From an uncultured Bacteroidales bacterium (lineage in GTDB: Bacteria; Bacteroidota; Bacteroidia; Bacteroidales; UBA932): DNA of 64,000 bases. Position numbers and translations under genes: made by a program. Below, piece by piece: positions 42,281 to 63,362 of the stretch. Below the pieces are notes generated by a model, which saw only the letters and a program-made list of their open reading frames with translations, made no database searches and had not been told where the DNA came from. Location: contig ONJB01000007.1 of assembly GCA_900318015.1 (NCBI GenBank), positions 62,001 through 126,000 on the forward strand, given 5' to 3'. Every line of letters starts with the position of its first letter. Within the stretch, counting starts at the first letter, position 1.

Positions 42281-44086
42281 ATGAAAAAGATATTCAACAC
42301 CATCGCACTTGCAGCGGCCGCTCTCAGCCTGACCGCTTGCTTCGACCTCACCGAGCAGGCCTTCAACCGGATCGAAGCCGACAACTTCTACCAGAACGAA
42401 GGCAGCGTGAAGGGCGCCATCGCTTCCGTGTACTACACGGCGGAAGGCTCCTTCGGCGAGTATTTCTTCTACCTGAACGAGTTCTCCGCCGACCAGATCG
42501 CCTGGCGCGTGTGGAACGGCGGACAGTGGGGATGGGACAACGCCGAGAAGTTCGTCCTCTCCTCCCATACCTGGACTTCCCAGTCCTCCATCATCCAGAG
42601 CGCCTGGAACAACACCTGGGGCGCCATCGGCGAGGTCAACAGCATCATCCATGACCTGGAGACCATGGACCTCGAGGCCATCGGCGTCTCTCCGGAGCAC
42701 GCCGCCCAGTACATCGGCGAAATGCGGACCCTCCGCGCCTGGTGCTACTACAACCTCTTCGAGGTCTGGGGCGGCGCCCTGCCGCTCAACACCGAGGTGA
42801 CTTCCGAGGTCCCCGGTTCGGCCGATCCCGATTTCGACACCTCCTGCAAGAAGATCTATGACTTCCTGATGACGGAGCTGGACGAGAGCCTCGGCGACCT
42901 TCCGAAGAACAACGTGAACCGCATGAACCAGGCGACCAACCGCATGATCAAGGCCCGCCTGCTGCTGAATGCCCCCGTGTTCATCAAGGAGGACCACTTC
43001 TCCGAGTGCGCGACCCTGTGCCAGAGCATCATCAACGGTGAATTCGGCACGTACGCCCTCGCGGACGACTACCGGGACATCTACAACCCGGACAATGTCA
43101 ACTGCCCCGAGGTCGTGTTTGCGCTCGCTTACGAGTACGGCAAGTCCGCCGGCAACGCCTACAACATGCGCGACGTCACGTTCCTCCCGTACAACGCCTT
43201 CGGCGATCCGCTCTCCATCCTGGGCTCCAACAACGACCAGGGCCGTTGGAACTGCGTGATCATCGCCCCGTCCCACGACAACACCGGTACGGTCCTCCCG
43301 ACCGGCGGTACCGACACGGGCGGCAAGTCCTTCCTGTTCGACTATGGTGACAAGCTGGGCGCCGTGTACGATCGTTTCGACAACCGCGACATCCGCAAGA
43401 AGGCCTACCACGCCGACGAGAAAGGCAACTGGGAAGGTCTCTTCCTGATGGGCCCGCAGGTGGACTACTACACCGGCGCCGCCATGCCGGCCGACGCCGA
43501 CCGCGAAGGCCAGGATCTCGTGTACGTGGACCAGGTGGGTACCTTCCAGAACAAGGGCCGCGACCTGGCGCCCGTCATGTCCCCGCACTGGGGCGAGACG
43601 AACTCCGGTTTCCGCATGCTCCGCTACCCGATTCTCCCGGATGTCTGCGGCGTGGATTTCCGCGACACGGACGAGGTTGAATTCCGGCTGGCCGAGGTCT
43701 ATTACATGCTGGCCGAGTGCAAGCTCCGCGCGGGCGACGCCAACGGTGCCAAGGATCTCGTGAACCAGGTCCGCAGGCGCTACTTCAAGGCTTCCGACTG
43801 GACGTCCGTCCAGAATGAGCCGGGTCCGGGCTTCTCCGCCTTCGACCTCGACTGGATGCTCAACGAGTGGGGCAAGGAGTTCCTCTGCGAGGGACGCCGC
43901 CGCCGCACCGATCTCCGCCGTTATGACGTGTTCACCCAGGGCCAGTGGTGGTTCTTCGGCCGTGGCGAGGGTGACGACGCCTATCCCGCCAAGCGCGACC
44001 GCAAGTATGAGTGGTTCCCGCTGCCGGAGGCCGCCCTCACGGTGAACCCCGGCCTCGTGCAGAATCCTAACTATGTAGCTCAGTAA
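42281..44086 (+). CDS. susD: SusD/RagB lipoprotein, locus B
   Basis: 601 residues; lipobox LSLTAC. SusD motifs: GEMRTLRAWCYYNLFEVWGGALPLNTE and FRLAEVYYMLAECKLRAGDANGAKDLVNQVRRRYF, DLDWMLNEWGKEFLCEGRRRTDLRRYD-like region, LPEAALTVNPGLVQNPNY at the end. It caps the SusC encoded 12 bases upstream and binds incoming glycan. It is longer than the locus A SusD and only distantly similar. Its stop overlaps a possible start of the next gene at 44086. Confidence 0.95.
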   Translation: MKKIFNTIALAAAALSLTACFDLTEQAFNRIEADNFYQNEGSVKGAIASVYYTAEGSFGEYFFYLNEFSADQIAWRVWNGGQWGWDNAEKFVLSSHTWTSQSSIIQSAWNNTWGAIGEVNSIIHDLETMDLEAIGVSPEHAAQYIGEMRTLRAWCYYNLFEVWGGALPLNTEVTSEVPGSADPDFDTSCKKIYDFLMTELDESLGDLPKNNVNRMNQATNRMIKARLLLNAPVFIKEDHFSECATLCQSIINGEFGTYALADDYRDIYNPDNVNCPEVVFALAYEYGKSAGNAYNMRDVTFLPYNAFGDPLSILGSNNDQGRWNCVIIAPSHDNTGTVLPTGGTDTGGKSFLFDYGDKLGAVYDRFDNRDIRKKAYHADEKGNWEGLFLMGPQVDYYTGAAMPADADREGQDLVYVDQVGTFQNKGRDLAPVMSPHWGETNSGFRMLRYPILPDVCGVDFRDTDEVEFRLAEVYYMLAECKLRAGDANGAKDLVNQVRRRYFKASDWTSVQNEPGPGFSAFDLDWMLNEWGKEFLCEGRRRRTDLRRYDVFTQGQWWFFGRGEGDDAYPAKRDRKYEWFPLPEAALTVNPGLVQNPNYVAQ

Positions 44087-44091
44087 TGACC

Positions 44092-46506
44092 ATGAAAAGA
44101 ATCTTATCCTATCTGACGATACCGGCCCTTTTCCTCGCCGCAGCTGCCTGCGCGCCGAAGGAAGAGATCAAATTCGCCCATGAGGAGCAGGCCTTCGACA
44201 CCCGGAGCGACCGTATCCTGGTGGAGGCCATCCTCCCGCAGGCGACCGCGGCCGACGATGAGGTATATATCATCGGCGCTTTCAACGGCGGCGAGGCCGC
44301 CGTGGGCAACAGCGCCTACCGGCTCACCCGTTCGGCGGCCATCCCCGCCAAGTGGGGTGTCTATGTGGATCCCTCGGCGTTCCAGGGCGGCAAGACCCTC
44401 GCCGACGGTTTCACCTTCTTCAATGTCCAGCAGGGTATCGAACGCGGTCCCAAGAACGAGGACGTCACGCACAAGCTGACCATCGGCCTGGGCGAATGGG
44501 CCAATGTCTATGCCGACAAGTGGGCCAAGTACTTCGAGCCGCCGGTGACCCCGGATACGCCTACGCTGCCCGAACATGACGGTGTGCGCGTGTACATCAT
44601 TGACCAGACCGGCTGGGATGCCATCGCCCTGTACCAGTGGGGTGACGTGAACAACTTCGGCGGCGACTGGCCGGGCGCTCAGGTGACCGGTACGTGGACC
44701 TTCAACGGCCAGGAGTACAAGTACTTCGAATATGGCGAAGACATCTTCGGCCTGGGTCAGAACCTGATCTTCAACAACAATAACAACGGGACGCAGCTCG
44801 CGGACTACAATGTCCGGTTCGAGGACGGTGTGCAGGACTACTTCTTCCTGGTGACCGCCGACGGCGTGTCCGAGGCTCCGAACCCGGTCGACGGCGCTTC
44901 CGCCGATCCGCGCGCGGCCATGACCGAGACCAGCCCTTGGGGCGTGATCGGTTCCATCGCCAGCACCGGCAACAGCTGGGGCGCGGACGAGCCGATGGTC
45001 ACCGACGGCACCTGGCATGCGTGCCTGGGCCTGACCCTTTCCGCCGCCGACGAGTTCAAGTTCCGCAAGGACGCCGACTGGGGTGTCAACTTCGGCGGTG
45101 ACTTCGTCGCGCTGGGCGAGTCCTTCGAGGTGAAGCAGGACGGCGCCAACATCAAGGGCCTTGAAGACGGTACCTACGACCTCTTCCTGAACCCGGATGC
45201 CGCCATCGTCATCATCGTGAACGCCGGCGATCCGGTCACCCTGCCTTCCGGCGAAGGCGGTGACACCCCGGAACCTCCGGTGGAGGAGACCAAGGCTCCC
45301 GTGACGATCTATGTCCAGGACGCCTCCGGCTGGGAGAACCTGTACCTCTATATGTGGGGTGACAAGGAACTCTGCGGCGGCTGGCCCGGCACGGCCGTGA
45401 CCGAAACCGAGAAGTTCGGGTCCGTCTTCTACAAGAAGATCGTCGTCGATGACGCGGAAGGCCGCGCCGAGAACCTCATCTTCAACAACAACGCCGGTAC
45501 GCAGACCGAGAGCTTCGCCGTCACCCTGTCCGGAGAGCTGTTCGTCTCCCTGGATGCGGACGGTGTCATCACGCCCATCGACCCGCGCAACCCGGACATC
45601 CGGATCTACATCCAGAACCAGACCAACTGGGACGCCATCGCCCTGTATGCCTGGGGTGACGCCGAAGCCTTCGGCGGCTGGCCGGGCGCTACGCCGGTGA
45701 ATACCGAGACCGTCGGGGATGTGGAATACCTGGTGTTCGGTCTCCCGGCGGACATGGCCGGCAAGAAGCTGAACCTCATCGTGAACAACAACGGCGGCGG
45801 CAAGCAGCTCGACGAGCTCGCCATCACCGTTCCGGAGGAGGAGATGTTCCTGGTGATCAATGCCAGCTACTCCCTCGGCGTCGTGGACGGCAACCCGCGC
45901 GGCGCGGACAAGAAGCGCGTGGCCGTGTTCGTGGACGACCAGACCGGCTGGGACGGCTTCGCCCTGTACCAGTGGGGTGATGTGAACAACCTTGGCGGCG
46001 GCTGGCCCGGCGCCCAGGTGGGTGCCACGGTCACCATCGGCGGGAAAGACTGGAAGGTGTTCTTCTTCGAGGACGCCCTGGGTCTCAACCAGCACCTGAT
46101 CTTCAACAACAACGGCGGCGGCACCCAGCTCCCCGACTACGACCTCAAGTTCGAGAAGAACGAGTACTTCCTGACGGTCACGGCTGACGGCGTCACGGCT
46201 GTCGATGCGCCCGAGACGGTCGTTGTCTTCGTGGACGACCAGACCGGTTGGGATACGATCACCCTGTACATGTGGGGTGACGTGAACAACCTCGGCGGCG
46301 GCTGGCCCGGCGTGGCCGTGGGCGGCGAAGCCACCGTGAACGGCATCGCCACCAAGATGTTCGTCATCGACGAGGCCTTCGGCAAGGCCGAGAACCTCAT
46401 CTTCAACAATGGCGGCAACGGCACCCAGCTCGGGGACTATGCCCTCAAGTATGAGCGCAATGCCTACTACCTGAAGGTGACGGCTTCCGGCGTCTCCGTC
46501 TTCTGA
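44092..46506 (+). CDS. Surface starch-binding lipoprotein with five CBM26-like modules and one SusE/F module
   Basis: 804 residues from the ATG at 44092 (an ATG two codons earlier overlaps the SusD stop and is an alternative). Lipobox AAAAC. An N-terminal domain of unknown family (about 20-150) is followed by CBM26-like modules near 165, 403, 503, 610 and 709 and one SusE/F-like module near 282. The CBM26 pattern is clear in each: aromatic-rich opening (DQTGWDAIALYQWGD), GGxWPG, and NLIFNNNxGGTQL. CBM26 binds starch in Gram-positive amylases. Five in one binding protein without a catalytic domain is unusual. It takes the SusE/F position in locus B. Starch binding is inferred from the modules. 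Confidence 0.85.
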   Translation: MKRILSYLTIPALFLAAAACAPKEEIKFAHEEQAFDTRSDRILVEAILPQATAADDEVYIIGAFNGGEAAVGNSAYRLTRSAAIPAKWGVYVDPSAFQGGKTLADGFTFFNVQQGIERGPKNEDVTHKLTIGLGEWANVYADKWAKYFEPPVTPDTPTLPEHDGVRVYIIDQTGWDAIALYQWGDVNNFGGDWPGAQVTGTWTFNGQEYKYFEYGEDIFGLGQNLIFNNNNNGTQLADYNVRFEDGVQDYFFLVTADGVSEAPNPVDGASADPRAAMTETSPWGVIGSIASTGNSWGADEPMVTDGTWHACLGLTLSAADEFKFRKDADWGVNFGGDFVALGESFEVKQDGANIKGLEDGTYDLFLNPDAAIVIIVNAGDPVTLPSGEGGDTPEPPVEETKAPVTIYVQDASGWENLYLYMWGDKELCGGWPGTAVTETEKFGSVFYKKIVVDDAEGRAENLIFNNNAGTQTESFAVTLSGELFVSLDADGVITPIDPRNPDIRIYIQNQTNWDAIALYAWGDAEAFGGWPGATPVNTETVGDVEYLVFGLPADMAGKKLNLIVNNNGGGKQLDELAITVPEEEMFLVINASYSLGVVDGNPRGADKKRVAVFVDDQTGWDGFALYQWGDVNNLGGGWPGAQVGATVTIGGKDWKVFFFEDALGLNQHLIFNNNGGGTQLPDYDLKFEKNEYFLTVTADGVTAVDAPETVVVFVDDQTGWDTITLYMWGDVNNLGGGWPGVAVGGEATVNGIATKMFVIDEAFGKAENLIFNNGGNGTQLGDYALKYERNAYYLKVTASGVSVF

Positions 46507-46565: not shown

Positions 46566-47948
46566 ATGAGAAAGACAGTATTCCTGACAGCGGCCCTGCT
46601 CGTTCTCGCCGCCTGTGGCTGCGGGAAGCCGCAGACGCTGCCCATCATCCCCTCCGGCCAGGAGACCGGTCCCGGCGGGAAGGAGACCATCCCGGAACCC
46701 GGCATTACCTATGCCACGGAAGTGCTCACGCTGCCGGCGACGGCCCGTGACCATTACCAGATCTACCAGGTGAACCTGAAACTGTACGGCAACTCCGGCG
46801 CCTTCGGCAAGGTGCAGGCGCGGCTGGACGAGATCAAAGCCCTGGGTACGGACATCCTGTACCTGATGCCGGTGTATGCCGAAGGGAAGGACGTCCTGCC
46901 GGGACTGCCCGGAAACAAGCCTTTCGGGTCTCCCTACTGCATCAGGAATTACAAGGAGGTAAACAGCCTGTACGGCACGCTGGATGAACTGAAAGCCCTG
47001 GTGAACGCCGCCAAGGCCAAGGGAATGAAAGTGATGTTCGACTGGGTGGCCAACCACACCTCCTGGGACAACGTGTGGCTTTCCGAGCATCCCGAGTGGT
47101 ATGAGCACAAGGCCGACGGCAGCATTGCCTGGCCCACCAAGGACGGAGAGTGGAAGGACGTGGCCCAGCTGGACTTTGGCAAGAAGGAACTGTGGGCTGC
47201 GATGGAAGACGCCCTGGAATACTGGGTGACGGAAGTGGGCATCGACGGCTACCGCTGCGACTATGCCCATGGCGTGCGCGATGACTTCTGGAAGGAGGCC
47301 ATCGGCAAGCTGAAGGCCCTCAAGCCCGGTTTCATCATGCTGGCGGAGAGCGATTTCACCCGGATGTTCGACGACGGTTTCGACATCATCTTCGACCGGA
47401 AGATGAAGAGCGAGATGCGGAAAGTCATCGGCAGTACCGCCTCCACCAAGAATTTCTTTACCTGGTACAAGAGTGACCAGGACGCAGCGCCGGCCCCCAA
47501 GACCAAGCTCTTCTTCGTGACGAACCACGACGACGCCACCGAGGCGGCGCCGGCTACCCAGTTCAAGTCCAACGAAGGCGCCCTGGCCGCCTATGTGCTG
47601 ATGGCCGCCCTCAACGGATCCTCCATGCTGTACGGCAGCCAGGAGGTCGGTTTCAACAAGACCATCAATTTCTTCAACACCCAGACGATGGACTGGACGG
47701 CCAATGCCGCCCTGAAGACCAGATATCAGGAAGCCCTGCAGGCTCTCGCCAAGGTGGACCGCAGCGGCGCGATGGTCGCCAGCGAGTCCGAAGGGGTGGT
47801 CTATGTGGCCTATCCGAAGGCCCTCGTGGGCGTGAACGTGAGCGGCAAGGCCTGCAAGGCTTCCCTCCCGAAGGCCAATGCCGGCAAGAACGGCGTGCCT
47901 ACCTCGCAGGAATTCGGTGCGTATGAATTCAAAATCTGGACTTTCTAG
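46566..47948 (+). CDS. GH13 alpha-amylase-family lipoprotein
   Basis: 460 residues; lipobox-like LVLAACGCG places it on the outer membrane. Single GH13 barrel plus short C-terminal beta domain; compact compared with SusG. Conserved motifs: IYQVNLKLYGNSGAF, MFDWVANHTSWDN (region I), GYRCDYAHGV (Asp nucleophile), IMLAESD (Glu), FFVTNHDD (Asp). Region II has Cys rather than the usual Leu/Met before the Asp. It should cut alpha-1,4 links in starch at the surface and so plays the SusG role in locus B. It starts 59 bases after the binding-protein gene, beyond hairpin copy 2. Confidence 0.9.
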   Translation: MRKTVFLTAALLVLAACGCGKPQTLPIIPSGQETGPGGKETIPEPGITYATEVLTLPATARDHYQIYQVNLKLYGNSGAFGKVQARLDEIKALGTDILYLMPVYAEGKDVLPGLPGNKPFGSPYCIRNYKEVNSLYGTLDELKALVNAAKAKGMKVMFDWVANHTSWDNVWLSEHPEWYEHKADGSIAWPTKDGEWKDVAQLDFGKKELWAAMEDALEYWVTEVGIDGYRCDYAHGVRDDFWKEAIGKLKALKPGFIMLAESDFTRMFDDGFDIIFDRKMKSEMRKVIGSTASTKNFFTWYKSDQDAAPAPKTKLFFVTNHDDATEAAPATQFKSNEGALAAYVLMAALNGSSMLYGSQEVGFNKTINFFNTQTMDWTANAALKTRYQEALQALAKVDRSGAMVASESEGVVYVAYPKALVGVNVSGKACKASLPKANAGKNGVPTSQEFGAYEFKIWTF

Positions 47949-47951
47949 CGT

Positions 47952-49859
47952 ATGAAACGTTTCCTGACCCTGGCCGCCGGTCTTTTGGTGGCGGCCTCCC
48001 TGCTGGCGGGCGAAGTGACCCGCGTGGAACCCCTGTCCTGGTGGACCGGGATGAAGACCGACCTGCAGCTCCTCGTGCAGGGGCCGGGCATCGGCGCCTA
48101 TACCGTCTCCGTCGAAGGCAAGGGCCTGAAGATCAAGGAGGTCCATCAGGCCGACAACCCGAACTTCCTGTTCGTGGACGTGGAGGTGAGCCCGAAGGCG
48201 AAGCCCGGAACTTACACGCTCGTGTTCAAGAAGGGGAATGATGTCGTCCGCTATCCTTATGAGATCGCGGCCCGGAAACCGGGTTCCGCCGACCGGGAAA
48301 GCTTCACGACGTCCGACCTCATCTACCTGATCGTCCCGGACCGGTTCGCCAACGGCGACCCGTCCAACGATTCCGTGGACAATGCCACGGAGAAGGCGAA
48401 CCGCGGCGAGCCTTTCGGCCGCCACGGCGGCGACCTGCAGGGTGTCATCGACCACCTGGACTACATCGCCGACCTGGGTGCGACGGCCCTGTGGAGCACG
48501 CCGCTGCTGGGCGACAACGCCCCGCGCGGCTCCTATCACGGCTACGCCTGCTCGGACTACTACCACATCGACCCGCGCTACGGTTCCAACGAGTTGTACC
48601 GGGAGATGGTCGCGAAGGCCCATGAAAAGGGCATCAAGGTCATCCTGGACGTGGTGACGAACCACTCCAGCACCGAGCACTGGTGGATGCAGGACATGCC
48701 GTTCAAGGACTGGGTCCACATGAACGACCCGTATGTGAACTCGAACCACCAGATGGGCCTGGCCCTGGACCCGAACGCTTCGAAAGCGGACCTCGCCATC
48801 ATGGAGGAAGGCTGGTTCGTGCGGAACATGCCGGACATGAACCTGGACAACCCCTATATGCTGAAATACTTCCAGCAGTGGGCCGTGTGGTGGATCGAGT
48901 ATTCGGGCCTGGACGGCTTCCGCGTGGACACCTGGTTCTACAACGAGAAGGTGCCGATGTCGCAGTGGGCGAAGGCGGTGACCGACGAGTATCCGAACTT
49001 CAACATCGTGGGCGAGGTATGGCAGGCCAATCCCGACTTCGTCGCCTACTGGCAGAAAGACAACCCCAACTCCGACGGGTTCAATTCCTACCTGCCGTCC
49101 ATCATGGACTTCCCGCTGCAGGCGGCCATGACCGGCGCGCTGACGGCGCCGATCCCGGGCCGGGAGGAGCAGCGGCAGGGCCCGCCCCAGGGCCGCGGCC
49201 GCCGCGGGGGACCGGACATCTCCGCTGTGTACAATGCCCTGTCGCACGATTTCATCTATCACGACCTGAGCCACATGCTCATCTTCCTGTCGAACCACGA
49301 CATCGCCCGCATCGGCGACACCTTCGGCCATGATCCGCGCCGGATGAAGCTCGCCTTCGTGATGCTCGCGACTCTCCGGGGCATCCCGCAGCTCTTCTAC
49401 GGCGACGAGATGATGTTCGTCACGGGGAATCCGCAGCGGGACGACGGCCGTCTCCGGATGGACTTCCCGGGCGGCTGGGCCGGCGATCCGGTGAATCTCT
49501 TCACCGCCGAAGGCCGGGCGAAGGCCGACGGATCCTGGGCTCATGCGGCCGACCTGCACGATTACGCCCGCACCCTCTTCCAGTGGCGCAAGGGCTCGTC
49601 GGCCGTCCAGCACGGCAAGACCCTGCATTTCATCCCCGAAAACAATACATACGGCTATTTCCGGTATGACGACCGGGAAGTGGTGTTCGTGTTCCTCAAT
49701 AATTCCGACCAGACCGTGAAAGTCCCGTGGACCCGTTTCCGCGAGATCTCCGCCGGTCTCGGCGAGGGTGTCGATGTCCTGACGGGGAAGCGGGTGACCG
49801 TTTCCGACGCGACGGAGGTCGCTCCGTTTACCGCCCTGGTCGTGGACTATCGGCGATAG
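47952..49859 (+). CDS. susA: GH13 cyclomaltodextrinase/neopullulanase, SusA-like
   Basis: 635 residues with a type I signal (MKRFLTLAAGLLVAASLLAG), so periplasmic. N-terminal cyclomaltodextrinase N-domain (VTRVEPLSWWTGMKTDLQLLVQG), barrel from DLIYLIVPDRFANGDPSNDS, catalytic Asp in GFRVDTWFYNEKVP, Glu in IVGEVWQANP, Asp in IFLSNHDIARIGD, and a C-terminal beta domain. It hydrolyses imported malto-oligosaccharides. An Arg/Gln/Gly/Pro-rich loop (EEQRQGPPQGRGRRGGPD, about residues 403-420) is inserted in the barrel. Gap to the upstream gene is three bases. Confidence 0.9.
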   Translation: MKRFLTLAAGLLVAASLLAGEVTRVEPLSWWTGMKTDLQLLVQGPGIGAYTVSVEGKGLKIKEVHQADNPNFLFVDVEVSPKAKPGTYTLVFKKGNDVVRYPYEIAARKPGSADRESFTTSDLIYLIVPDRFANGDPSNDSVDNATEKANRGEPFGRHGGDLQGVIDHLDYIADLGATALWSTPLLGDNAPRGSYHGYACSDYYHIDPRYGSNELYREMVAKAHEKGIKVILDVVTNHSSTEHWWMQDMPFKDWVHMNDPYVNSNHQMGLALDPNASKADLAIMEEGWFVRNMPDMNLDNPYMLKYFQQWAVWWIEYSGLDGFRVDTWFYNEKVPMSQWAKAVTDEYPNFNIVGEVWQANPDFVAYWQKDNPNSDGFNSYLPSIMDFPLQAAMTGALTAPIPGREEQRQGPPQGRGRRGGPDISAVYNALSHDFIYHDLSHMLIFLSNHDIARIGDTFGHDPRRMKLAFVMLATLRGIPQLFYGDEMMFVTGNPQRDDGRLRMDFPGGWAGDPVNLFTAEGRAKADGSWAHAADLHDYARTLFQWRKGSSAVQHGKTLHFIPENNTYGYFRYDDREVVFVFLNNSDQTVKVPWTRFREISAGLGEGVDVLTGKRVTVSDATEVAPFTALVVDYRR

Positions 49860-49987: not shown

Positions 49988-52018
49988 ATGAAAAAGACCG
50001 TTCTCGCGGCCGTGGCGATCCTTCTCGCGGCCTGCTCCCCGAAGACCTCCGTCTCTTCGCCGGACGGCCGGATTTCCGTCCGGTTCGAACTGACCCCTTC
50101 CGGTGTTCCCACCTATGCCGTGGAAGTGGATGGGCAGCCGTTGCTGGAACCCTCTGCCATGGGCCTGGTTTCCGAAGACGTGGTCCTGGACCAGGGATTT
50201 GCGCTCAAGTCCTCCAAGGTCAGCAGTTTCCGGGAGACCTGGCACCAGCCTTGGGGCGAGAACAAGGAGGTGGAAGACAACCACCGGGAGCTTTCCTTGA
50301 AGCTGAAGAATGACGCAGGCGTCGGCCTGGAGGTCGTGTTCCGCGTGTTCGACGACGGATTCGGTTTCCAGTACGCCTATGCGGCGCCAGGCGTCGATAC
50401 GCTCCGGATCAGCGGCGAGCGGACGCAGTTCGCCTTCGCCGCCGACGCGGACACCTGGTCCATCCCGGGGGATTTCAATTCCTACGAACACCTGTACCGC
50501 AAGATGCGGCTGTCGGAACTCCCGGATGCCAATACGCCGCTGACGCTCAAGTTCTCCGACGGTCTGTATGCCGCGGTCCACGAGGCCGCGCTGGTCGATT
50601 TCCCCGAGATGGTGCTTCGCCATGCGGACGGCCTGTCTTTCCAGGCTTCGTTGGCTCCGCTCCGGCAGCAGCGCCGCCGTCGGGGGCAGCCCGTCGAAGA
50701 AACCAATGACGTGAAGGCCGTCGTCCCGGGCTCTTTCCAGACCCCCTGGCGGACGGTCCAGATTGCCCATTCCGCCGTGGGCCTCATCAATTCTTCCCTC
50801 ATCCTGAACCTCAACGAGCCCTGCGCCCTCACGGACGTCTCCTGGATCAAACCGATGAAATACATCGGCGTGTGGTGGAGCCTGCACCTGGGCGTTGAGT
50901 CCTGGGGCGGGGAAGGCCACGGCGCGACGACGGAGAATGCGATGCGCTACATCGACTTTGCCGCCGCCAACAACATCCAGGGCGTCCTGTTCGAAGGCTG
51001 GAACGACGCCTGGCACAATTCCGATGCCATGCCCGAGTTTGACTTCACGAGCCCGGCGCCGGACTATGACGTGGCGAAAGTGGCCGCGTACGCCCGCGAG
51101 AAGGGCATTTACCTGATTACCCACAATGAGACCGGCGGCAATTATCTCCGCTTTGAGGACCAGCTGGAGCGCGCCCTGGACTGGGACGCCTCGCTGGGCA
51201 TCCATGCGATGAAGACCGGCTATGCCGGCGGCGGTCTGTCAGGCGGCGCCCCGCGCCACAGCCAGACCGGCGTCCGCCACTTCCAGAAGGTGGTGGAAGA
51301 AGCCGCCGAGCGGCAGATCATGGTGGACGGCCACGAAGTCATCAAGGAGACGGGCCTGCGCCGCACCTGGCCCAATTTCATGACCCGGGAATGCGTCCGG
51401 GGCATGGAATACAACGGCTGGGGCCCGGGCAATCCGCCGTCCCATACGGTCATCCTCCCGTACACGCGTCTGCTGAGCGGTCCGGTGGACTATACGCCGG
51501 GCGTGTTCGACATCAAGTACACATGCGTCCAGGGCAAGCCGCAGCTCCGCACCTGGGGCCGGCCGAGCTCCGACTTCAGCGAGCACACCACCTTGGCGAA
51601 ACAGATGGCCAACTGGGTGATTCTCTACTCGCCGATGCAGATGGCCTGCGACCTGCTGGAGAACTACGAGGGACATCCCGCCTTCCAGTTCTTCCGCGAC
51701 TTCGATGCCGATTGTGATGCCTCCGAGGCCCTCCAGGGCGAGGTGGGCGAGTGGATCAGCGTTGTCCGCCGCGCCGGCGACCGCTTCTTCCTGGGCGCTT
51801 CCACCGACGAGACCGGCCGCACCTTCGACCAGCCGCTGACCTTCCTGCGCCCCGGCGTCCGCTACACCGCCACCGTCTATGGCGACGCCGCCGACGCGCA
51901 CTGGGATACGAATCCCACCGCCTACGAGATCACCACTTGCAGCGTGACTTCCGAAGATACCCTCACCCTCCGTCTCGCCCCCGGCGGCGGCGCTGCGGTG
52001 ACTTTCCTGCCCGAATAG
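49988..52018 (+). CDS. susB: GH97 alpha-glucosidase, SusB-like lipoprotein
   Basis: 676 residues; lipobox ILLAAC. GH97 N-domain (VSSPDGRISVRFELTPSGVPTYAVEVDG), barrel with KYIGVWWSLHLGVESWG and the three glutamate sites expected for the inverting SusB type: NETGGNYLRFED, VDGHEVIKETGLRRTWPN and TRECVRGMEYNGWG. C-terminal beta domain present. It releases glucose from imported oligosaccharides in the periplasm. An Arg-rich loop (RQQRRRRGQPVEE, about residues 225-238) interrupts the N-domain. Lipid anchoring, rather than a soluble form, is predicted. Confidence 0.92.
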   Translation: MKKTVLAAVAILLAACSPKTSVSSPDGRISVRFELTPSGVPTYAVEVDGQPLLEPSAMGLVSEDVVLDQGFALKSSKVSSFRETWHQPWGENKEVEDNHRELSLKLKNDAGVGLEVVFRVFDDGFGFQYAYAAPGVDTLRISGERTQFAFAADADTWSIPGDFNSYEHLYRKMRLSELPDANTPLTLKFSDGLYAAVHEAALVDFPEMVLRHADGLSFQASLAPLRQQRRRRGQPVEETNDVKAVVPGSFQTPWRTVQIAHSAVGLINSSLILNLNEPCALTDVSWIKPMKYIGVWWSLHLGVESWGGEGHGATTENAMRYIDFAAANNIQGVLFEGWNDAWHNSDAMPEFDFTSPAPDYDVAKVAAYAREKGIYLITHNETGGNYLRFEDQLERALDWDASLGIHAMKTGYAGGGLSGGAPRHSQTGVRHFQKVVEEAAERQIMVDGHEVIKETGLRRTWPNFMTRECVRGMEYNGWGPGNPPSHTVILPYTRLLSGPVDYTPGVFDIKYTCVQGKPQLRTWGRPSSDFSEHTTLAKQMANWVILYSPMQMACDLLENYEGHPAFQFFRDFDADCDASEALQGEVGEWISVVRRAGDRFFLGASTDETGRTFDQPLTFLRPGVRYTATVYGDAADAHWDTNPTAYEITTCSVTSEDTLTLRLAPGGGAAVTFLPE

Positions 52019-52030
52019 GCCCATCGACTT

Positions 52031-55000
52031 ATGAAACAACACGGACTCCTTTCTTTGCTCGCCGCCCTGTTCCTCGCGGTGGGCGCGCATGCCGCGGACA
52101 TCCAGCGCATGGATCCTCCCTTCTGGTATGCCGGTATGAAGAACCACGAACTCCAGGTGATGTTCTATGGAAAGGACATCGCCCAGGCGGAGTTCTCCCT
52201 GAAATCCTATCCGGGCGTCCAGGTCAAGGAGGTTGCGAAGGTCAAGAACCCGAACTACCTGATCGTATATCTGGATGTCACGGAGAAGGCCCGTCCCGGC
52301 ACGATGACTTTCCGCTTCAAGGAGGGTCGTAAGGTCACCGAGAAGGCCTTCGAACTCCGTCCGCGCAACACGAAGACAGGCGCGCAGGGCTTCTCCACAA
52401 AGGATGTGCTGTACCTGATCATGCCGGACCGTTTCGCCAACGGCAATCCTGCCAATGACGACTGGGAGCAGTTCAAGGCCGACCGCCGGAACGGGGGCGG
52501 CCACCATGGCGGCGACCTGCAGGGCATCCGGGACCACCTGGGCTACATCGATTCGCTCGGGGTCACGGCCGTCTGGCTCAATCCGGTCCAGTACAACCGG
52601 AGCAATGCCTCGCACGGCTATGCGATTTCGGACTTCTACCTGATCGACCCGCGGCTTGGGACCAACGAGGAGTACTGCGGCCTGGTCGACGCCGCCCACG
52701 GACGGAACATCAAGGTGGTAATGGACATGATCTTCAACCATTCGGGGAGCACCCATTGGTGGATCGAGGATATCCCGGACGATGACTGGTTCAACCAGGA
52801 CGCCTATGCGAAGAAGCTGTCGGAGCGGCAGCGGCAGGGACCGCCGGAGGGCGGATTCCGCCGCGGACCGCGCGGGAACGACGGGTTGACGACCACGACC
52901 CACTACAAGTGGGTGCTCATGGACCCGCACGCGCCCCAGTCCGAGAAGGACGTCCTCCTGGACGGCTGGTTCTCGGGCGGTATGCCGGACCTGAACCAGC
53001 GCAACCGTCACCTGGCTACCTACCTGATCCAGAACAGCGTCTGGTGGATCGAGTATGCGCGTATCGACGGTATCCGCATGGACACCTATCCCTATGCCGA
53101 CTATGATTTCATGACCCGCTGGTGTCGGGAGATCGAGGATGAGTATCCCGATTTCAATATCGTGGGCGAGGGCTGGTACCCCCGCAATTCCGCCGCCGGC
53201 TGGTGGCAGCGCGGATCGGCCCTGAACCCGTCCGACACGCACCTGAAGACGGTCATGGACTTTGACCTGACCTTTACGATCCAGCGCGAGATTCTCCAGG
53301 AAAGCAATACCAGCGAAGGCTCCGAGGCCGGTCTGTTCAAGGTTTATGAGACCGTCGCGCAGGACTTCCTGATTCCCGATCCGGACCATGTACTCACCTT
53401 CCTGGACAACCATGACATCAGCCGCTTCATGCAGCCGGGCGATCCCGTCTGGAAGTTCAAGCAGGGCCTCGCGTTCCTCGTGACTTCCCGCGGCATCCCG
53501 CAGATCTACTATGGGACGGAGATCGCGATGGCGGGTCCCGACCAGCTCCGCGGCGATTTCCCGGGCGGCTGGAAGGAGGACCCGGCGAGCGCCTTCACGG
53601 CGGCCGGCCGCAACCCCGTCCAGAACGAGTGCTGGGATTTCGCGAGCAGGCTCCTGAACTGGCGCCGGACCTCGAAAGCGGTCACAGAAGGCCGCCTGGT
53701 CCACTATACCCCTGATAACCAGACCAAGTGCTATGTTTATGCCCGCATCGCCGGCGACGACACCGTTCTCGTGATCCTGAACGGTTCCGACACCGAGCGC
53801 GAGCTGAACATGACCCGTTTTGCCGATGTCATCGGAATGCATACCTTCGGGGTCGATGTCGTGACCGGCGAACTGGTCAATTTGACTTCGACTGTCCGGA
53901 TGGCGCCCCGTGGCGTGCATGTGCTGGAACTTCGGTCCGCCGAGGTACCGGCGCCGCCGTACGCCGTTTTCTCCGAAGGCCTGATCGACCGGATCCAGCC
54001 CGAAGGCTGGCTGAAGGAAATCCTCCAGCGGCAGCGCGACGGATTGACCGGCCATCCCGAGGCGATGGCTTATCCTTATAATTCCGTCCTCTGGGCCGGT
54101 ACGCTGGAGCGGGACTCGGAGTCCCGCGGCGCGGACTGGTGGCGCTTCGAACAGACCGCCTATTATCTGGACGGCCTCACCCGCCTGGGTTTCCTGCTGG
54201 ATGACAAGCATTTCCTGGATGTCTGGCAGGAGAACATCGACTATGTCCTTGCCCATCCGCTGCCTTTCAAGGCCGGTCTGACACCCGAAGAGCTGGCGGC
54301 CCGGGATGCCGGGCGTCCGCGACGGAACTTCGATGCGGAGGTCTCGGCCGATCCGCGGGCCCGTGCGCGGGCCGCCCAGATGCAGGCACGACGGGAACGC
54401 GAGAACCGCATCGCCGCCACCGACCGGCCCGAAGGTCGCCTCGGCCCGGAAACGGGCTCGATGGCCTGGCCGTGGGCCGTTTTCTTCCGGGCGGTGAAGG
54501 CGTATTATGAGGCGACCGGCGATCCGCGGATTCCGGCCGCCCTGGAAAAGAACTATCTGTCCTATTCCGTTCCGGAACTGGCGATGAACCGGTTCGTGGT
54601 GAACGTGGAGGGGATGCTATGGACCTATTCGCTGACCGGGGACCGCCGGCTCCTGGACCACGCCGTCGCGGCCTGGGAGGAGGGCGCTTCCGAACTCACG
54701 CAGGCCAGCGCCCTGGATGACAGCGAATTCCACATGCACGGGGTGACAATGAACGAGCTGCTCAAGATCCCGATGCTCCTCTATTCCTATACCGGAGAAC
54801 GGAAATATCTCGACGCGGCCCTGCATGCGATGCAGAAGATGGAGGGGCCGAATCTGCTCGTGGACGGCATCAATTCCTCCTCCGAGGCCTTGGCCGGGAA
54901 CGACCCGCTCGCCAGTCACGAGACGTGCGACGTGTCCGACTATACCTGGACCCTGGGCTATTACCTGATGGCCACCGGGGACGGCCAGTGGGCGGACCGG

Positions 55001-55957
55001 ATCGAGAAAGGCATCTTCAACGGCGGCCTGGGGTCGATTACCAAGGACTTCAAGTCCATGCAGTATTTCTCCTGCCCGAACCAGGTCATCGCCACCGGTA
55101 ATTCCAACCACAACGGCTTCAAGCACGGCCTGACCTGGATGGCCTATCGGCCCATCCATGAGACGGAGTGCTGCATCGGCAACCTGCATCGTTTCCTGCC
55201 GAACTATGTGGCCCGGATGTGGCTGAAAGACAAGAAAGGACATCCCGTCGCCGCCCTGTATGGTCCTTCCTCCGTGGAATATGACCTGGGAGGAGGAAGG
55301 GCTGTGCGCATCGTGGAAGAAACCGGCTATCCGTTTGAAGAGCAGGTGCGCTTCCGCTTCACTTTCCTGCAGGATGGCAAGGAGACGGACTGGCCCGTCG
55401 AGATGGACTTCACCTACCGGATTCCGGCCTGGTGCAAGGCGGGCAACCCCGGATTCAAGACGGTCAGCAAGACCTGGAAGACCGGCGATGTCCTGACGGT
55501 CGACCTGCCGATGGACATTGAAATTGTCGACAATCCCGGGTCGGGAACAGCCGTCCAGCGGGGCCCGATCCTGTATGCCTTCCCGGTTCCGGCGAAGGTC
55601 GAAGAGGATCCGAAGGTCTATGAGAACCTGGCCGGGAAGGTATCGGCCAACCCGGATTTCAAGAGCTGGAGCATGAAGCCGGCAGGCGCGTGGAACTACG
55701 CCCTGGTCCGGAACCGGCTGAACGGCCTCCGGGTCCAGGCGACCGGCGCGAAGGGCTTCCCGTTCGACCCGGAATCCGTTCCGATGAAAATCCGTGTTCC
55801 GGTCGTCGGGGTGAAGGGCTGGACGCTGCAGGAGGACCGGTACACCCCCGCCTTGCCCGAAACGATTGAAGCGGAAGGCCCCGTCAAATACATCGACCTG
55901 GTCCCTTACGGCAGCACGACCCTGCGTCTGACGCTGTTCCCGGAAATCAACCTGTAA
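52031..55957 (+). CDS. Fused GH13 cyclomaltodextrinase and GH127-type glycosidase
   Basis: 1308 residues in one uninterrupted frame; type I signal (MKQHGLLSLLAALFLAVGAHA). Residues 22-635 are a complete SusA-like GH13: N-domain, barrel from VLYLIMPDRFANGNPANDD, Asp in GIRMDTYPYADYD, Glu in IVGEGWYPRN, Asp in FLDNHDISRFM, C-terminal beta domain. Residues about 645-1308 form a GH127/DUF1680 unit: alpha/alpha toroid (WWRFEQTAYYLDGLTRLGFLLDD), acid/base candidate in NSSSEAL, zinc site HETCDVS and TECCIGNLHRFLPNY. GH127 founders are zinc-cysteine beta-L-arabinofuranosidases. Two basic loops are inserted (RQRQGPPEGGFRRGPRG; about residues 755-795). Last gene of locus B. Activity of the second half is unknown. 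Confidence 0.85.
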   Translation: MKQHGLLSLLAALFLAVGAHAADIQRMDPPFWYAGMKNHELQVMFYGKDIAQAEFSLKSYPGVQVKEVAKVKNPNYLIVYLDVTEKARPGTMTFRFKEGRKVTEKAFELRPRNTKTGAQGFSTKDVLYLIMPDRFANGNPANDDWEQFKADRRNGGGHHGGDLQGIRDHLGYIDSLGVTAVWLNPVQYNRSNASHGYAISDFYLIDPRLGTNEEYCGLVDAAHGRNIKVVMDMIFNHSGSTHWWIEDIPDDDWFNQDAYAKKLSERQRQGPPEGGFRRGPRGNDGLTTTTHYKWVLMDPHAPQSEKDVLLDGWFSGGMPDLNQRNRHLATYLIQNSVWWIEYARIDGIRMDTYPYADYDFMTRWCREIEDEYPDFNIVGEGWYPRNSAAGWWQRGSALNPSDTHLKTVMDFDLTFTIQREILQESNTSEGSEAGLFKVYETVAQDFLIPDPDHVLTFLDNHDISRFMQPGDPVWKFKQGLAFLVTSRGIPQIYYGTEIAMAGPDQLRGDFPGGWKEDPASAFTAAGRNPVQNECWDFASRLLNWRRTSKAVTEGRLVHYTPDNQTKCYVYARIAGDDTVLVILNGSDTERELNMTRFADVIGMHTFGVDVVTGELVNLTSTVRMAPRGVHVLELRSAEVPAPPYAVFSEGLIDRIQPEGWLKEILQRQRDGLTGHPEAMAYPYNSVLWAGTLERDSESRGADWWRFEQTAYYLDGLTRLGFLLDDKHFLDVWQENIDYVLAHPLPFKAGLTPEELAARDAGRPRRNFDAEVSADPRARARAAQMQARRERENRIAATDRPEGRLGPETGSMAWPWAVFFRAVKAYYEATGDPRIPAALEKNYLSYSVPELAMNRFVVNVEGMLWTYSLTGDRRLLDHAVAAWEEGASELTQASALDDSEFHMHGVTMNELLKIPMLLYSYTGERKYLDAALHAMQKMEGPNLLVDGINSSSEALAGNDPLASHETCDVSDYTWTLGYYLMATGDGQWADRIEKGIFNGGLGSITKDFKSMQYFSCPNQVIATGNSNHNGFKHGLTWMAYRPIHETECCIGNLHRFLPNYVARMWLKDKKGHPVAALYGPSSVEYDLGGGRAVRIVEETGYPFEEQVRFRFTFLQDGKETDWPVEMDFTYRIPAWCKAGNPGFKTVSKTWKTGDVLTVDLPMDIEIVDNPGSGTAVQRGPILYAFPVPAKVEEDPKVYENLAGKVSANPDFKSWSMKPAGAWNYALVRNRLNGLRVQATGAKGFPFDPESVPMKIRVPVVGVKGWTLQEDRYTPALPETIEAEGPVKYIDLVPYGSTTLRLTLFPEINL

Positions 55958-56049: not shown

Positions 56050-56193
56050 ATGAAACAGAAGCGCATGTACGAGGTTCCGGAAAGCGAACTGCTGGAACTG
56101 AAGTTGGAGGAAGGTCTCCTCTATGATACGCAAAGGGGTGCTGTGACAGTAGAGCCCTACAATCTGGATGCTGATCAATGGGACGAAAGATAA
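56050..56193 (+). CDS. 47-residue small protein of the Bacteroidales 'YExPxxE' type
   Basis: ATG at 56050, stop at 56191-56193. The peptide opens MKQKRMYEVPESELLELKLE and ends DADQWDER. Short acidic proteins with this opening pattern often precede lipoprotein or fimbrillin-like genes in Bacteroidales, as here (next start 11 bases on). No signal peptide or membrane segment. Function unknown. Reality is supported by its own promoter and by the fit to a recurring pattern. Confidence 0.6.
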   Translation: MKQKRMYEVPESELLELKLEEGLLYDTQRGAVTVEPYNLDADQWDER

Positions 56194-56203
56194 GGAGCAG
56201 GCT

Positions 56204-57751
56204 ATGAAAAGAATCGTTTACATCGCCGCAGCCCTGCTGCTGGCGGCCTGTTCCCAAGAGACCTTACCCGAGACAAGCGAAATCGAAATCGTAGAAACGC
56301 CTGAACCCAAGACCTATACGGTTTCTTTGCAGGCCACGTTCGCTCCGGAGACGAGGTTGTCTTTCGATACTTCCACCGGAAGTGGAACATGGGACGCGGA
56401 CGATCAGGTCGCTCTGTTTACGGAGAATGGGAATTTGGTCATCGGCGTTATCAAGGAGGGAGATCTCAATAATGGAGTGTCCCCGACATTTACCTTTACC
56501 ATTCAAGACGATGACAAGATTGTCGATGGCGCCACGGTCTATTATCCCGCATCTATCGCGGTCAAGGGCAGTCAGAACCAGATTGTCCTGCCTGCCAGTT
56601 ATGATGATCTGGAGGTCATGAAAAAGACCATCCCGATGAAAGCGACCGTCAGCGGGAAAAACATGGCTTTCCAGCACCTGGCGTCGATGGTATATGTCGA
56701 TGCTCCCACCTCTACTCCCAGTCATCCAAGCGACAGGTCACCTCAATATGTAGTCTTTTCCGTAGGTGAAGGTAATTCGCCCATTACAGGAACATTCACG
56801 GTCGGAGATGGAACATTGACCCCTGCGGGAGACAATGGGACCGCGATTCGAGCGAAGTGGACCGCAGGAGGAGGTTATTACTTTGTCATGCCGGCCACGA
56901 CTTATAGCGGGGGTTTTTCTCTCTCTATTATCTCTGACATTACCAATGTTGAGGGGAAAGAAGTGTATTTCACCTTTTATAGGAAAACACGTTCTTCTTC
57001 TTTTGTCGCCCAGCGGGCCCGCATGCTCAAAATGCCCGCTTTCGACCCTCAGTGCAAGGAGTTCTATCTGACGGGTACGGCAACAGGATGGTCGGACTCG
57101 AACACGAACGCCCGAATGATTCAAGCGGACGAGAATGTTTTTATCGGTGCGCTCTATAGCTTTGACAACAGTGGGCAAGGGTCCGACTATGGTTTCAAAA
57201 TCCTCCAGGGTTTTAACATTGGAACAAACTGGAACAACGCTATTGGTGTTTCTATCGGCTCCACCTCTGCTACCTATGGTAAAGTCGGGAATCTTCCTGC
57301 TCCGGATAACAGGGTCTATAGCGTCACCTTGACATTGGGAGAAGATTCTTGGACCGCGGAGTCCCGGAGAGTCCGTGATGAGTTCGGAGACTATGGTCAT
57401 GCCCATCTCTATCTGGTCTTTGGACCTTATTCTAGCAATTCTGTCGATTGGACAACACAAGTTGCATTGTCCCAGCCAGTCGGCCACAATTGGCAGGGTC
57501 AGGTGACCATCGGCGGCAGCTCCGGCATCCCGGCGGGCACGGAGTATGGGTGGATAATTACCGATGGGGAAATCCGCGACGGGAAGTGGTATGTCCAGTG
57601 GAATAAAGGCGATATTTCAGATGACACGCTTTATTCCAGCGTGGATTTCAATAACGCAAATATCCGCAACGGATCCCTTACGCTCTCCGCCGGCACGTAC
57701 GACGTCTTCTTCAACGACGCGATCGGCCGGATCATGTTCGAGAAGAAATAG
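56204..57751 (+). CDS. Fimbrillin-like lipoprotein with SusE/F-like C-terminal module
   Basis: 515 residues from the ATG at 56204; lipobox LLLAAC. Residues about 35-290 look like a fimbrillin-like domain: TRLSFDTSTGSGTWDADDQVALF, TVYYPASIAV, AFQHLASMVYVD, WTAGGGYYFVMPATTYSGG. The C-terminal part opens EFYLTGTATGWSDSNTNARM, like a SusE/F binding module, and ends in a beta-rich segment. It may be a minor pilus or surface adhesin component, or a glycan-binding lipoprotein. Base composition is markedly AT-richer (about 48% GC in sampled lines) until near 57480, then returns to the local level. Stop is four bases from the convergent ADH-ALDH gene. Confidence 0.7.
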   Translation: MKRIVYIAAALLLAACSQETLPETSEIEIVETPEPKTYTVSLQATFAPETRLSFDTSTGSGTWDADDQVALFTENGNLVIGVIKEGDLNNGVSPTFTFTIQDDDKIVDGATVYYPASIAVKGSQNQIVLPASYDDLEVMKKTIPMKATVSGKNMAFQHLASMVYVDAPTSTPSHPSDRSPQYVVFSVGEGNSPITGTFTVGDGTLTPAGDNGTAIRAKWTAGGGYYFVMPATTYSGGFSLSIISDITNVEGKEVYFTFYRKTRSSSFVAQRARMLKMPAFDPQCKEFYLTGTATGWSDSNTNARMIQADENVFIGALYSFDNSGQGSDYGFKILQGFNIGTNWNNAIGVSIGSTSATYGKVGNLPAPDNRVYSVTLTLGEDSWTAESRRVRDEFGDYGHAHLYLVFGPYSSNSVDWTTQVALSQPVGHNWQGQVTIGGSSGIPAGTEYGWIITDGEIRDGKWYVQWNKGDISDDTLYSSVDFNNANIRNGSLTLSAGTYDVFFNDAIGRIMFEKK

Positions 57752-62957: not shown

Positions 62958-63362
62958 ATGCGCAGAATCTTGACCCTCATCCTTCTCCTGGCCCTCGCGG
63001 CCGTGTCGGCTTCCGCCCAGATGGTGCAGGACGCCTCCTACCGGGTTGTCGCCCATATCAAGTCGGACGGGACCATCCAGGACGATTCGTACCGGATCAT
63101 CGGACACATCAAGTCCGACGGCACCGTCCAGGACGCTTCCTACCGGATCGTCGGTCACCTGAAGTCGGACGGAACGGTGCAGGATGCCTCGTACCGGATC
63201 GTCGGCCACATCAAATCCGACGGCACCGTCCAGGACTCCTCTTACCGGATCATCGGCCACGTCAAGTCCGACGGCACCGTGCAGGACGCGTCCTACCGGA
63301 TCATCGGCCATACGAAGGGAATCCCGATGCGCTGGGCCGCGCTCTATTTCTTCTTCCGCTGA
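62958..63362 (+). CDS. Repeat protein of the 5-fold beta-flower type
   Basis: 134 residues: signal peptide (MRRILTLILLLALAAVSASAQ), then five full and one partial copy of a 17-residue unit, VQDASYRIIGHIKSDGT, and a short hydrophobic tail ending in YFFFR. At the DNA level this is a 51-base tandem repeat (63021-63318) with third-position drift. Similar Bacteroidetes proteins have been called 5-fold beta-flower proteins, in which each unit forms one petal of a closed ring. No function is known. The C-terminal codons lie inside the 33-base promoter repeat of the next gene. Confidence 0.75.
   Translation: MRRILTLILLLALAAVSASAQMVQDASYRVVAHIKSDGTIQDDSYRIIGHIKSDGTVQDASYRIVGHLKSDGTVQDASYRIVGHIKSDGTVQDSSYRIIGHVKSDGTVQDASYRIIGHTKGIPMRWAALYFFFR

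Follow-up and report, generated by a model that had tools for sequence, protein, structure and literature searches.

Zinc-cysteine glycosidases are a rare catalytic type. The sources cited below describe them for β-L-arabinofuranosides and, in glycoside hydrolase (GH) family 127, for the release of 3,6-anhydrogalactose. A retaining mechanism has been described for HypBA1 (PMC10728902), whose arabinose-binding residues are H142, Y145, H194 and R273 (PMC10850190), and GH127 enzymes of Zobellia are described as exo-α-1,3-(3,6-anhydro)-D-galactosidases (PMC5698469; see also PMC10958521), so an α-linked hexose substrate lies within the family's reach. The same work describes a Bacteroides clade near DagA1 whose loci are at first sight unrelated to carrageenan and whose specificity has most likely changed (PMC5698469). 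A second described system, the Bacteroides-type Sus starch locus, has SusR, SusC, SusD, a starch-binding lipoprotein with family 26 carbohydrate-binding modules (CBM26), GH13 enzymes and GH97. Here we analyze 64,000 nucleotides (nt) of an uncultured Bacteroidales bacterium which we take to belong to the genus Cryptobacteroides (assembly GCA_900318015.1, contig ONJB01000007.1, positions 62,001 to 126,000 of the forward strand; "the window" below). Its starch locus is like the Bacteroides type in all of these components, and adds to them a gene in which a GH13 enzyme is fused to a GH127-superfamily enzyme.

Domain and profile comparisons confirm that this one frame, predicted to encode 1308 amino acids (aa), holds a complete GH13 unit of the SusA/neopullulanase type and a complete, divergent zinc-cysteine unit of the GH127 superfamily, and alignment shows both predicted catalytic sites to be intact. 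We regard the architecture as new, with the divergent, uncharacterised GH127 subfamily that it contains; the GH13 and GH127 kinds of enzyme are themselves known. A literature search on GH127 together with GH13, starch, fusion, amylase or neopullulanase, in which subscription journals were thinly covered, returned no title or abstract describing the pairing, in agreement with the initial annotation of this DNA, which knew of no such enzyme. Proteins of the kind to which the GH127 half belongs are otherwise known from plant and seaweed sugars; here the pairing with a starch enzyme is found again in related bacteria, and each half appears functional.

Two enzymes in one reading frame

Pfam places Cyc-maltodext_N, Alpha-amylase and Cyc-maltodext_C domains in residues 26–633, all over their curated cut-offs, and the GH127 catalytic and middle domains in residues 858–1161, with 53.6 and 32.4 bits (cut-offs 24.9 and 24.2), the match covering the catalytic model from model position 181 onward only. 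The pairing in a single frame named in the initial annotation is thus borne out, and its second half falls in the superfamily to which it had been assigned. The best match of the GH13 half is the SusA neopullulanase 9fyz (E 2.2e-170), with cyclomaltodextrinases next. It resembles these enzymes (9fyz, 1h3g and 3edd) in full-domain match, in the families of its N-terminal, barrel and C-terminal domains, in its catalytic triad (D351, E380 and D462, kept in 40/40 aligned sequences) and in its Sus-locus setting; it differs from them in the extra 670-aa GH127 unit and in a low-complexity insert rich in G, Q, P and R (residues 265–285, positions 52823-52885).

As a single query the GH127 half matches solved GH127 enzymes weakly (4qjy, E 6.7e-10). 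A profile built from 51 relatives (A2) aligns with these enzymes along most of the domain, with E values of 1.2e-70 for 4qjy, 1.4e-63 for 6ex6 and 2.1e-59 for 5mqo; HypBA1 gives about 5e-47 and the GH146 enzyme 5opj 3e-29. The predicted model has the (α/α)6 barrel and β-sandwich fold, with lower predicted local distance difference test (pLDDT) scores over part of an insertion particular to the close clade, at which the matches of cousins are interrupted (between query positions ~107 and 165). Its nearest folds are mostly β-L-arabinofuranosidases, and structural-alignment identity to solved GH127 and GH146 enzymes is 15–18% (16–18% for HypBA1 (3wkx), Ara127N (4qjy) and BT3674 (6ex6), none of which shares its fusion to GH13). 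The GH146 enzymes BT0349 (5opj) and Bll3HypBA1 (8k7x) have the clan GH-P fold and zinc site in common with it, the profile match of 5opj being weaker than that of 4qjy; GH127 chains outscore GH146 chains by profile and by Z in this comparison, which was made without a tree of characterised members. Structure 5mqo is BT_1003, which we take to be a GH127 enzyme and an aceric acid hydrolase; the window protein scores far below the cut-off of the aceric acid hydrolase model (NF049879; 49.5 against 950 bits), and this identity was rejected. DagA of Zobellia has the CAZy family name GH127 in common with the window protein and differs in its carrageenan locus.

The GH127 conservation alignment has 83 rows, three short rows having been dropped from the 86 collected (the window and some broken pieces included). 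E964, C966, C1047 and C1048, which align to HypBA1 and form a zinc site predicted from sequence, are kept in 83/83 rows, and the acid/base candidate E952 is kept in 82, in a loop with a 7-residue gap where the profile alignment sets HypBA1 E322 three residues further on. With the GH13 triad, these counts agree with the earlier reading of the catalytic motifs as intact.

A changed sugar-binding pocket

In the profile alignment HypBA1 H142, Y145, H194 and R273 correspond to S810, W813, R854 and T906 of the window protein, so that all four arabinose-binding residues are replaced. Among the 51 relatives W is found in 50 at the W813 position, R in 49 at that of R854 and T in 36 (N in 12) at that of T906; the residue at S810 varies (S in 15, A in 8). 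As a control, the pocket positions were read in GH127 genes of the same genome. One protein (L001) carries R where HypBA1 has R273 and H where it has H194, its H142/Y145 region having failed to align; another (L002) is GH146-like by eye, and the frames taken for L003 and L004, in which no GH127 motif was present, were set aside. Because all four residues are replaced the name β-L-arabinofuranosidase is unwarranted for the window protein, and the sugar that it cuts is probably not a plain HypBA1-type β-L-arabinofuranoside. The initial annotation had started from the premise that GH127 enzymes act on β-L-arabinofuranosides, which the Zobellia enzymes make too narrow, and had offered a new specificity on α-glucan products as one way out; a change of specificity is supported by the pocket residues, but it is not shown.

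Fused genes in related genomes

The GH127 half was used to query 398 genomes from the family, 400 from the genus and, order-wide, 295; 80 stretches of up to 20 kb were examined, 20 of them from the order-wide search. These took in part of the genus matches, and the rest among the matches listed have open frames of less than 800 aa. The same architecture, which the initial annotation had thought worth looking for in other genomes, is present in 14 congeners, each a separate species, making 15 fused frames with the window (by BLAST, with Pfam for two); a contig scan of the best 80 of 146 relatives gave 14 fused frames, on the same 14 contigs. A ruminant host is named in seven of the 14 records (two sheep, two water buffalo, a goat, a yak and a cow); the other seven name none.

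The fusions are of two types. Type A (GH13a-GH127) is found in the window and in genomes G728, G832, G763 and G768; type B (GH13b-GH127) is found in ten genomes, GH13b being a paralogue 49–52% identical to the window GH13 half, and the GH127 halves being 72–81% identical. In seven of the ten type B loci a stand-alone GH13a (67–74% identical to the window half; truncated where the contig stops in G866) lies directly upstream, a SusA-type GH13 is nearby, and a GH31 gene is near the fusion (all seven; by BLAST, with Pfam for one locus). Two further genomes, G897 and G835, have GH13b (619 aa) and a lipoprotein GH127 (702 aa) as unfused neighbouring genes, separated by 12 and 11 nt. Candidatus Cryptobacteroides avistercoris (G617) retains GH13b only as pieces (query positions 372–499 and 575–617; L094:6842-7345), which directly precede an intact stand-alone GH127 and a SusA gene.

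The low-complexity insert noted above reaches ~80 aa in the stand-alone GH13a proteins of other species and is absent from GH13b, SusA and L150. Alkaline phosphatase genes, present in four of the seven type B loci described above, adjoin GH13b-GH127 in several type B loci (L145:13018-14517, by Pfam, and L151:8023-9561; others by BLAST) and possibly serve phosphorylated starch.

Beyond the fusions themselves, GH127 and its GH13 partners tend to be carried together. GH127 at ≥57% identity is present in 39 of the 400 congeners and GH13b at ≥65% in at least 17 (both counted by hand, apparently in one and the same draw of genomes), of which 16 also carry the close GH127, the exception, G929, being 66% complete (Fisher 4e-17; the counts are lower bounds, three candidates having been scored per genome). 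In G387, G605, G776 and G658 the two genes are on separate contigs. All candidates were then rescored in 18 GH127 carriers with no known partner, in two positive controls (G000, the source genome, and G768, both recovered) and in 20 non-carriers. A partner, GH13a or GH13b, was recovered for 24 of the 39 carriers (16 with GH13b, 5 of type A and 3 with GH13a elsewhere), and neither was found in the 20 non-carriers searched in the same way, whose best matches were 34–45% identical and SusA-like. The linkage to GH13 also occurs in a second bacterial family: in Parabacteroides distasonis An897 (L189, L247 and L248) a SusD-like gene (domains unscanned) and a SusC gene on the same strand are followed by GH127 (64% identical), a hybrid two-component regulator on the opposite strand, a SusA-type GH13 (58% identical to GH13b) and a SusC/SusD pair.

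Origin of the fusion and selection

Stand-alone GH127 proteins of the close clade mostly carry a lipoprotein signal at the start and, after it, a sequence of the VPAPxYAxFSEG kind (read by eye). In the fused proteins the GH13 part ends about where stand-alone GH13 proteins end, and a VPAPxYAxFSEG-like stretch follows without signal or lipobox cysteine; comparison of the predicted proteins shows that the lipoprotein export signal of GH127 is gone and that the GH13 signal peptide leads. The approximately unbiased (AU) test, on bootstrapped trees, rejects the grouping of all fused sequences into one clade for both GH13 (p-AU 8e-9) and GH127 (p-AU 1e-33). The fused group was set before these tests, though quick trees had already been inspected by then, and the GH13 tree was rebuilt after removal of a spurious open reading frame (L100). 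A single origin of the fusion is thereby ruled out, and there have been at least two fusions, or one with partner exchange or splitting; one GH127 clade has two GH13 paralogues as its partners. The junctions of the window type fit both a separate fusion and loss of GH13b from an array of GH13a and GH13b-GH127. In seven pairs of fused genes the ratio of nonsynonymous to synonymous divergence (dN/dS) is 0.027–0.155 for the GH127 half and 0.028–0.154 for the GH13 half (dS is up to 1.6, so several ratios are rough), indicating similar purifying selection on the two.

Fusion of starch-locus enzymes seems to be recurrent in this genus. A 1004-aa frame in G605 (L264:2674-5688) joins a GH13 amylase-like unit to a SusA-type GH13, and open frames of ~1000–1070 aa surround SusA-type matches in a dozen other congeners (frames listed, domains unscanned).

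What the GH127 half may cut

We give about an even chance to the following explanation: the fusion gene of this Sus-type starch locus encodes a two-enzyme protein of the periplasm, whose GH127 half strips a cap or side-chain sugar from α-glucan-linked oligosaccharides. The GH13 signal peptide would take the whole protein to the periplasm, where the GH13 half would hydrolyse maltodextrins imported by SusCD; activity of this half on maltodextrins is, from its sequence, very likely. The GH127 half, which we are similarly confident is catalytic, would hold zinc on E964, C966, C1047 and C1048, with C1047 as the nucleophile by homology to HypBA1, and would act as a retaining enzyme that takes off a terminal sugar capping or decorating the oligosaccharides. 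The chain would then be open to complete breakdown by GH13 and GH97 enzymes and, in relatives, by GH31. A substrate linked in some way to α-glucan use is the somewhat better bet. With more reserve, at rather less than even chances, we suggest that an undescribed zinc-cysteine glycosidase subfamily, joined to two SusA-type GH13 enzymes, has been recruited to starch metabolism, where it cuts an α-glucan-linked sugar (a cap, a branch or an α-glucosyl unit).

Such a recruitment would indicate an unrecognised modification of starch or α-glucan in herbivore guts, and we know of no earlier clan GH-P enzyme with a role in starch use. Should starch-derived material be what the GH127 half acts on, then either a starch specificity has arisen in the clan or starch in the rumen bears an undescribed decoration, and both alternatives are directly testable with the two purified domains. 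That a divergent subfamily has been joined to SusA-type enzymes on more than one occasion, and is under selection, amounts to a natural experiment tying it to α-glucan use.

Several observations weigh against our main explanation. Its weakest point is the substrate, on which none of the evidence bears directly. The histidine of HypBA1 is found at the S810 position in 7 of the 51 relatives. The fused genes of G420, G533 and G935 have no other Sus-type gene within the stretches examined, and stand-alone close GH127 genes have no starch-locus gene nearby by BLAST in L085-L089, L154, L155 and L161; in G573 the stand-alone gene (L087) adjoins genes for an M48 peptidase, PBP1C and α-2-macroglobulin. 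Since several close relatives stand on their own in this way, it is unproven that the GH127 half acts on starch products at all. By our searches 15 of the 39 carriers have neither GH13a nor GH13b (G617, with its pieces, among them), and in G573, G916 and G770 the GH13a is 50–56% identical and lies on another contig than GH127 (partial in G770); the association of carriers with partners (24/39 versus 0/20, Fisher p 1e-6) is, like the other co-occurrence test, calculated without regard to kinship. Across the order SusA-type GH13 is widespread (at least 142 of 295 genomes at E ≤ 1e-150), and GH127 at >50% identity is present in two genomes only (G000 and G008). Other fusions in the genus, such as GH13-SusA in G605, mean that the GH13-GH127 fusion may mirror operon neighbourhood only. 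Distant GH127 cousins can adjoin GH123 and GH20 genes, their neighbours (which also include GH3, GH31, esterases and regulators) giving no clear hint of substrate, and distant cousins are fused to GH3, histidine phosphatase, or GDSL lipase or esterase units (L111:7050-11276, L118:2748-5921, L122:7353-10466, L066:8700-11528); by these frames the subfamily is a promiscuous fusion partner. The frame L112:8760-12986 has the same length as that of L111 (domains unscanned).

Among the alternatives, the one that survives best makes the GH127 half an exo-glycosidase acting directly on an α-linked glucosyl, or related hexosyl, unit of the GH13 products, a starch zinc-cysteine enzyme proper. It draws on the Zobellia enzymes, in which GH127 already cuts an α-linked hexose, on the fusion of GH127 with two different GH13 paralogues, for the most part within starch loci, and on the replaced arabinose pocket. 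We think it unlikely, since it would be redundant with the GH97 or GH31 α-glucosidase-type genes already in the loci, and pocket residues are described as replaced also in GH146 enzymes that still cut β-L-arabinofuranosides.

An ordinary β-L-arabinofuranosidase-like enzyme for arabinogalactan protein, extensin or pectin side chains, fused only through co-expression with the starch enzymes in a plant-fed gut, is about as unlikely. The absence of any arabinan, arabinogalactan protein or pectin enzyme from the nine window proteins scanned, the change of all four HypBA1 pocket residues and the linkage to GH13 in a second bacterial family set it against a case that comes from the nearest folds, the ruminant origin of half of the named records, the genus's tendency to fuse genes and a GH28-like (pectin-type) gene that begins right after SusA in the type B locus L145.

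A catalytically dead GH127 half, serving as a binding or scaffold domain, would fit the low structural-alignment identity to solved enzymes; it is effectively ruled out by the conservation of the zinc-cysteine site and acid/base candidate and by a dN/dS about as low as that of the GH13 half. An artefact of assembly or frame, for which nothing was found beyond the draft state of the genome (106 contigs), is refuted by fused frames in the assemblies of 14 separate species.

The starch locus and neighbouring genes

By gene content the region upstream of the fusion is a starch locus, as the initial annotation had it: a SusC/SusD pair, a regulator, a starch-binding lipoprotein and predicted α-glucan enzymes, the elements of a Sus-type polysaccharide utilization locus, are all present (Table 1).

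Table 1. Features of the fusion gene and its locus in the window
Feature	Position	Strand	Basis or remark
SusR-type regulator, 530 aa	37568..39160	+	NCBIfam NF058541, 517.8 bits (cut-off 480)
SusC-type TonB-dependent transporter	39338..42268	+	TIGR04056, 632 bits (cut-off 368.25)
SusD-type lipoprotein	42281..44086	+	PF07980, 148.5 bits; NCBIfam SusD model 123.2, far below cut-off of 725
SusE-like lipoprotein, four CBM26 starch-binding modules	44086..46506	+	PF16738, 4 stretches, E 4.8e-34; SusE-like named from position
GH13 α-amylase-like lipoprotein	46566..47948	+	PF00128, E 1.2e-28; lipobox by eye
GH13 SusA-type neopullulanase/cyclomaltodextrinase	47952..49859	+	PF00128, PF09087, PF10438
GH97 α-glycosidase	49988..52018	+	PF10566, PF14508, PF14509; stop 12 nt upstream of fusion gene
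GH13a-GH127 fusion gene, 1308 aa	52031..55957	+	ATG start, no internal stop; fused frames in 14 congeners
Type I signal peptide, residues ~1-22	52031..52096	+	Read by eye; points to periplasmic protein
GH13 unit, residues 26-633; catalytic D351, E380, D462	52106..53929	+	Pfam, sequence comparison, alignment
Junction, residues 634-650; VPAPPYAVFSEG similar to stretch after lipobox Cys of stand-alone GH127 homologues	53930..53980	+	
GH127-superfamily unit, residues ~651-1305; (α/α)6 barrel and β-sandwich domains	53981..55945	+	Pfam, profile, fold
Close-clade insertion, residues ~744-801	54260..54433	+	Without counterpart in cousins at ~55% identity and below
E952 (candidate acid/base) to HETC (E964, C966, two zinc ligands)	54884..54928	+	Alignment
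E1046-C1047-C1048, nucleophile and zinc-ligand cysteines	55166..55174	+	Homology to HypBA1 C417, C418
Lipoprotein, next + strand gene past fusion	56168..57751	+	Lipobox by eye

The lipoprotein that follows the fusion gene has no Pfam or NCBIfam match at E 0.001. Beyond it, on the opposite strand, an 877-aa frame (57756-60389) has an N-terminal iron alcohol dehydrogenase and a C-terminal aldehyde dehydrogenase, the reverse of the domain order of AdhE. Near the end of the window a 134-aa protein (62958-63362, + strand), with a signal peptide by eye and near-identical repeats of ~16 aa, matches the Pfam family Bflower_2 (5-fold β-flower).

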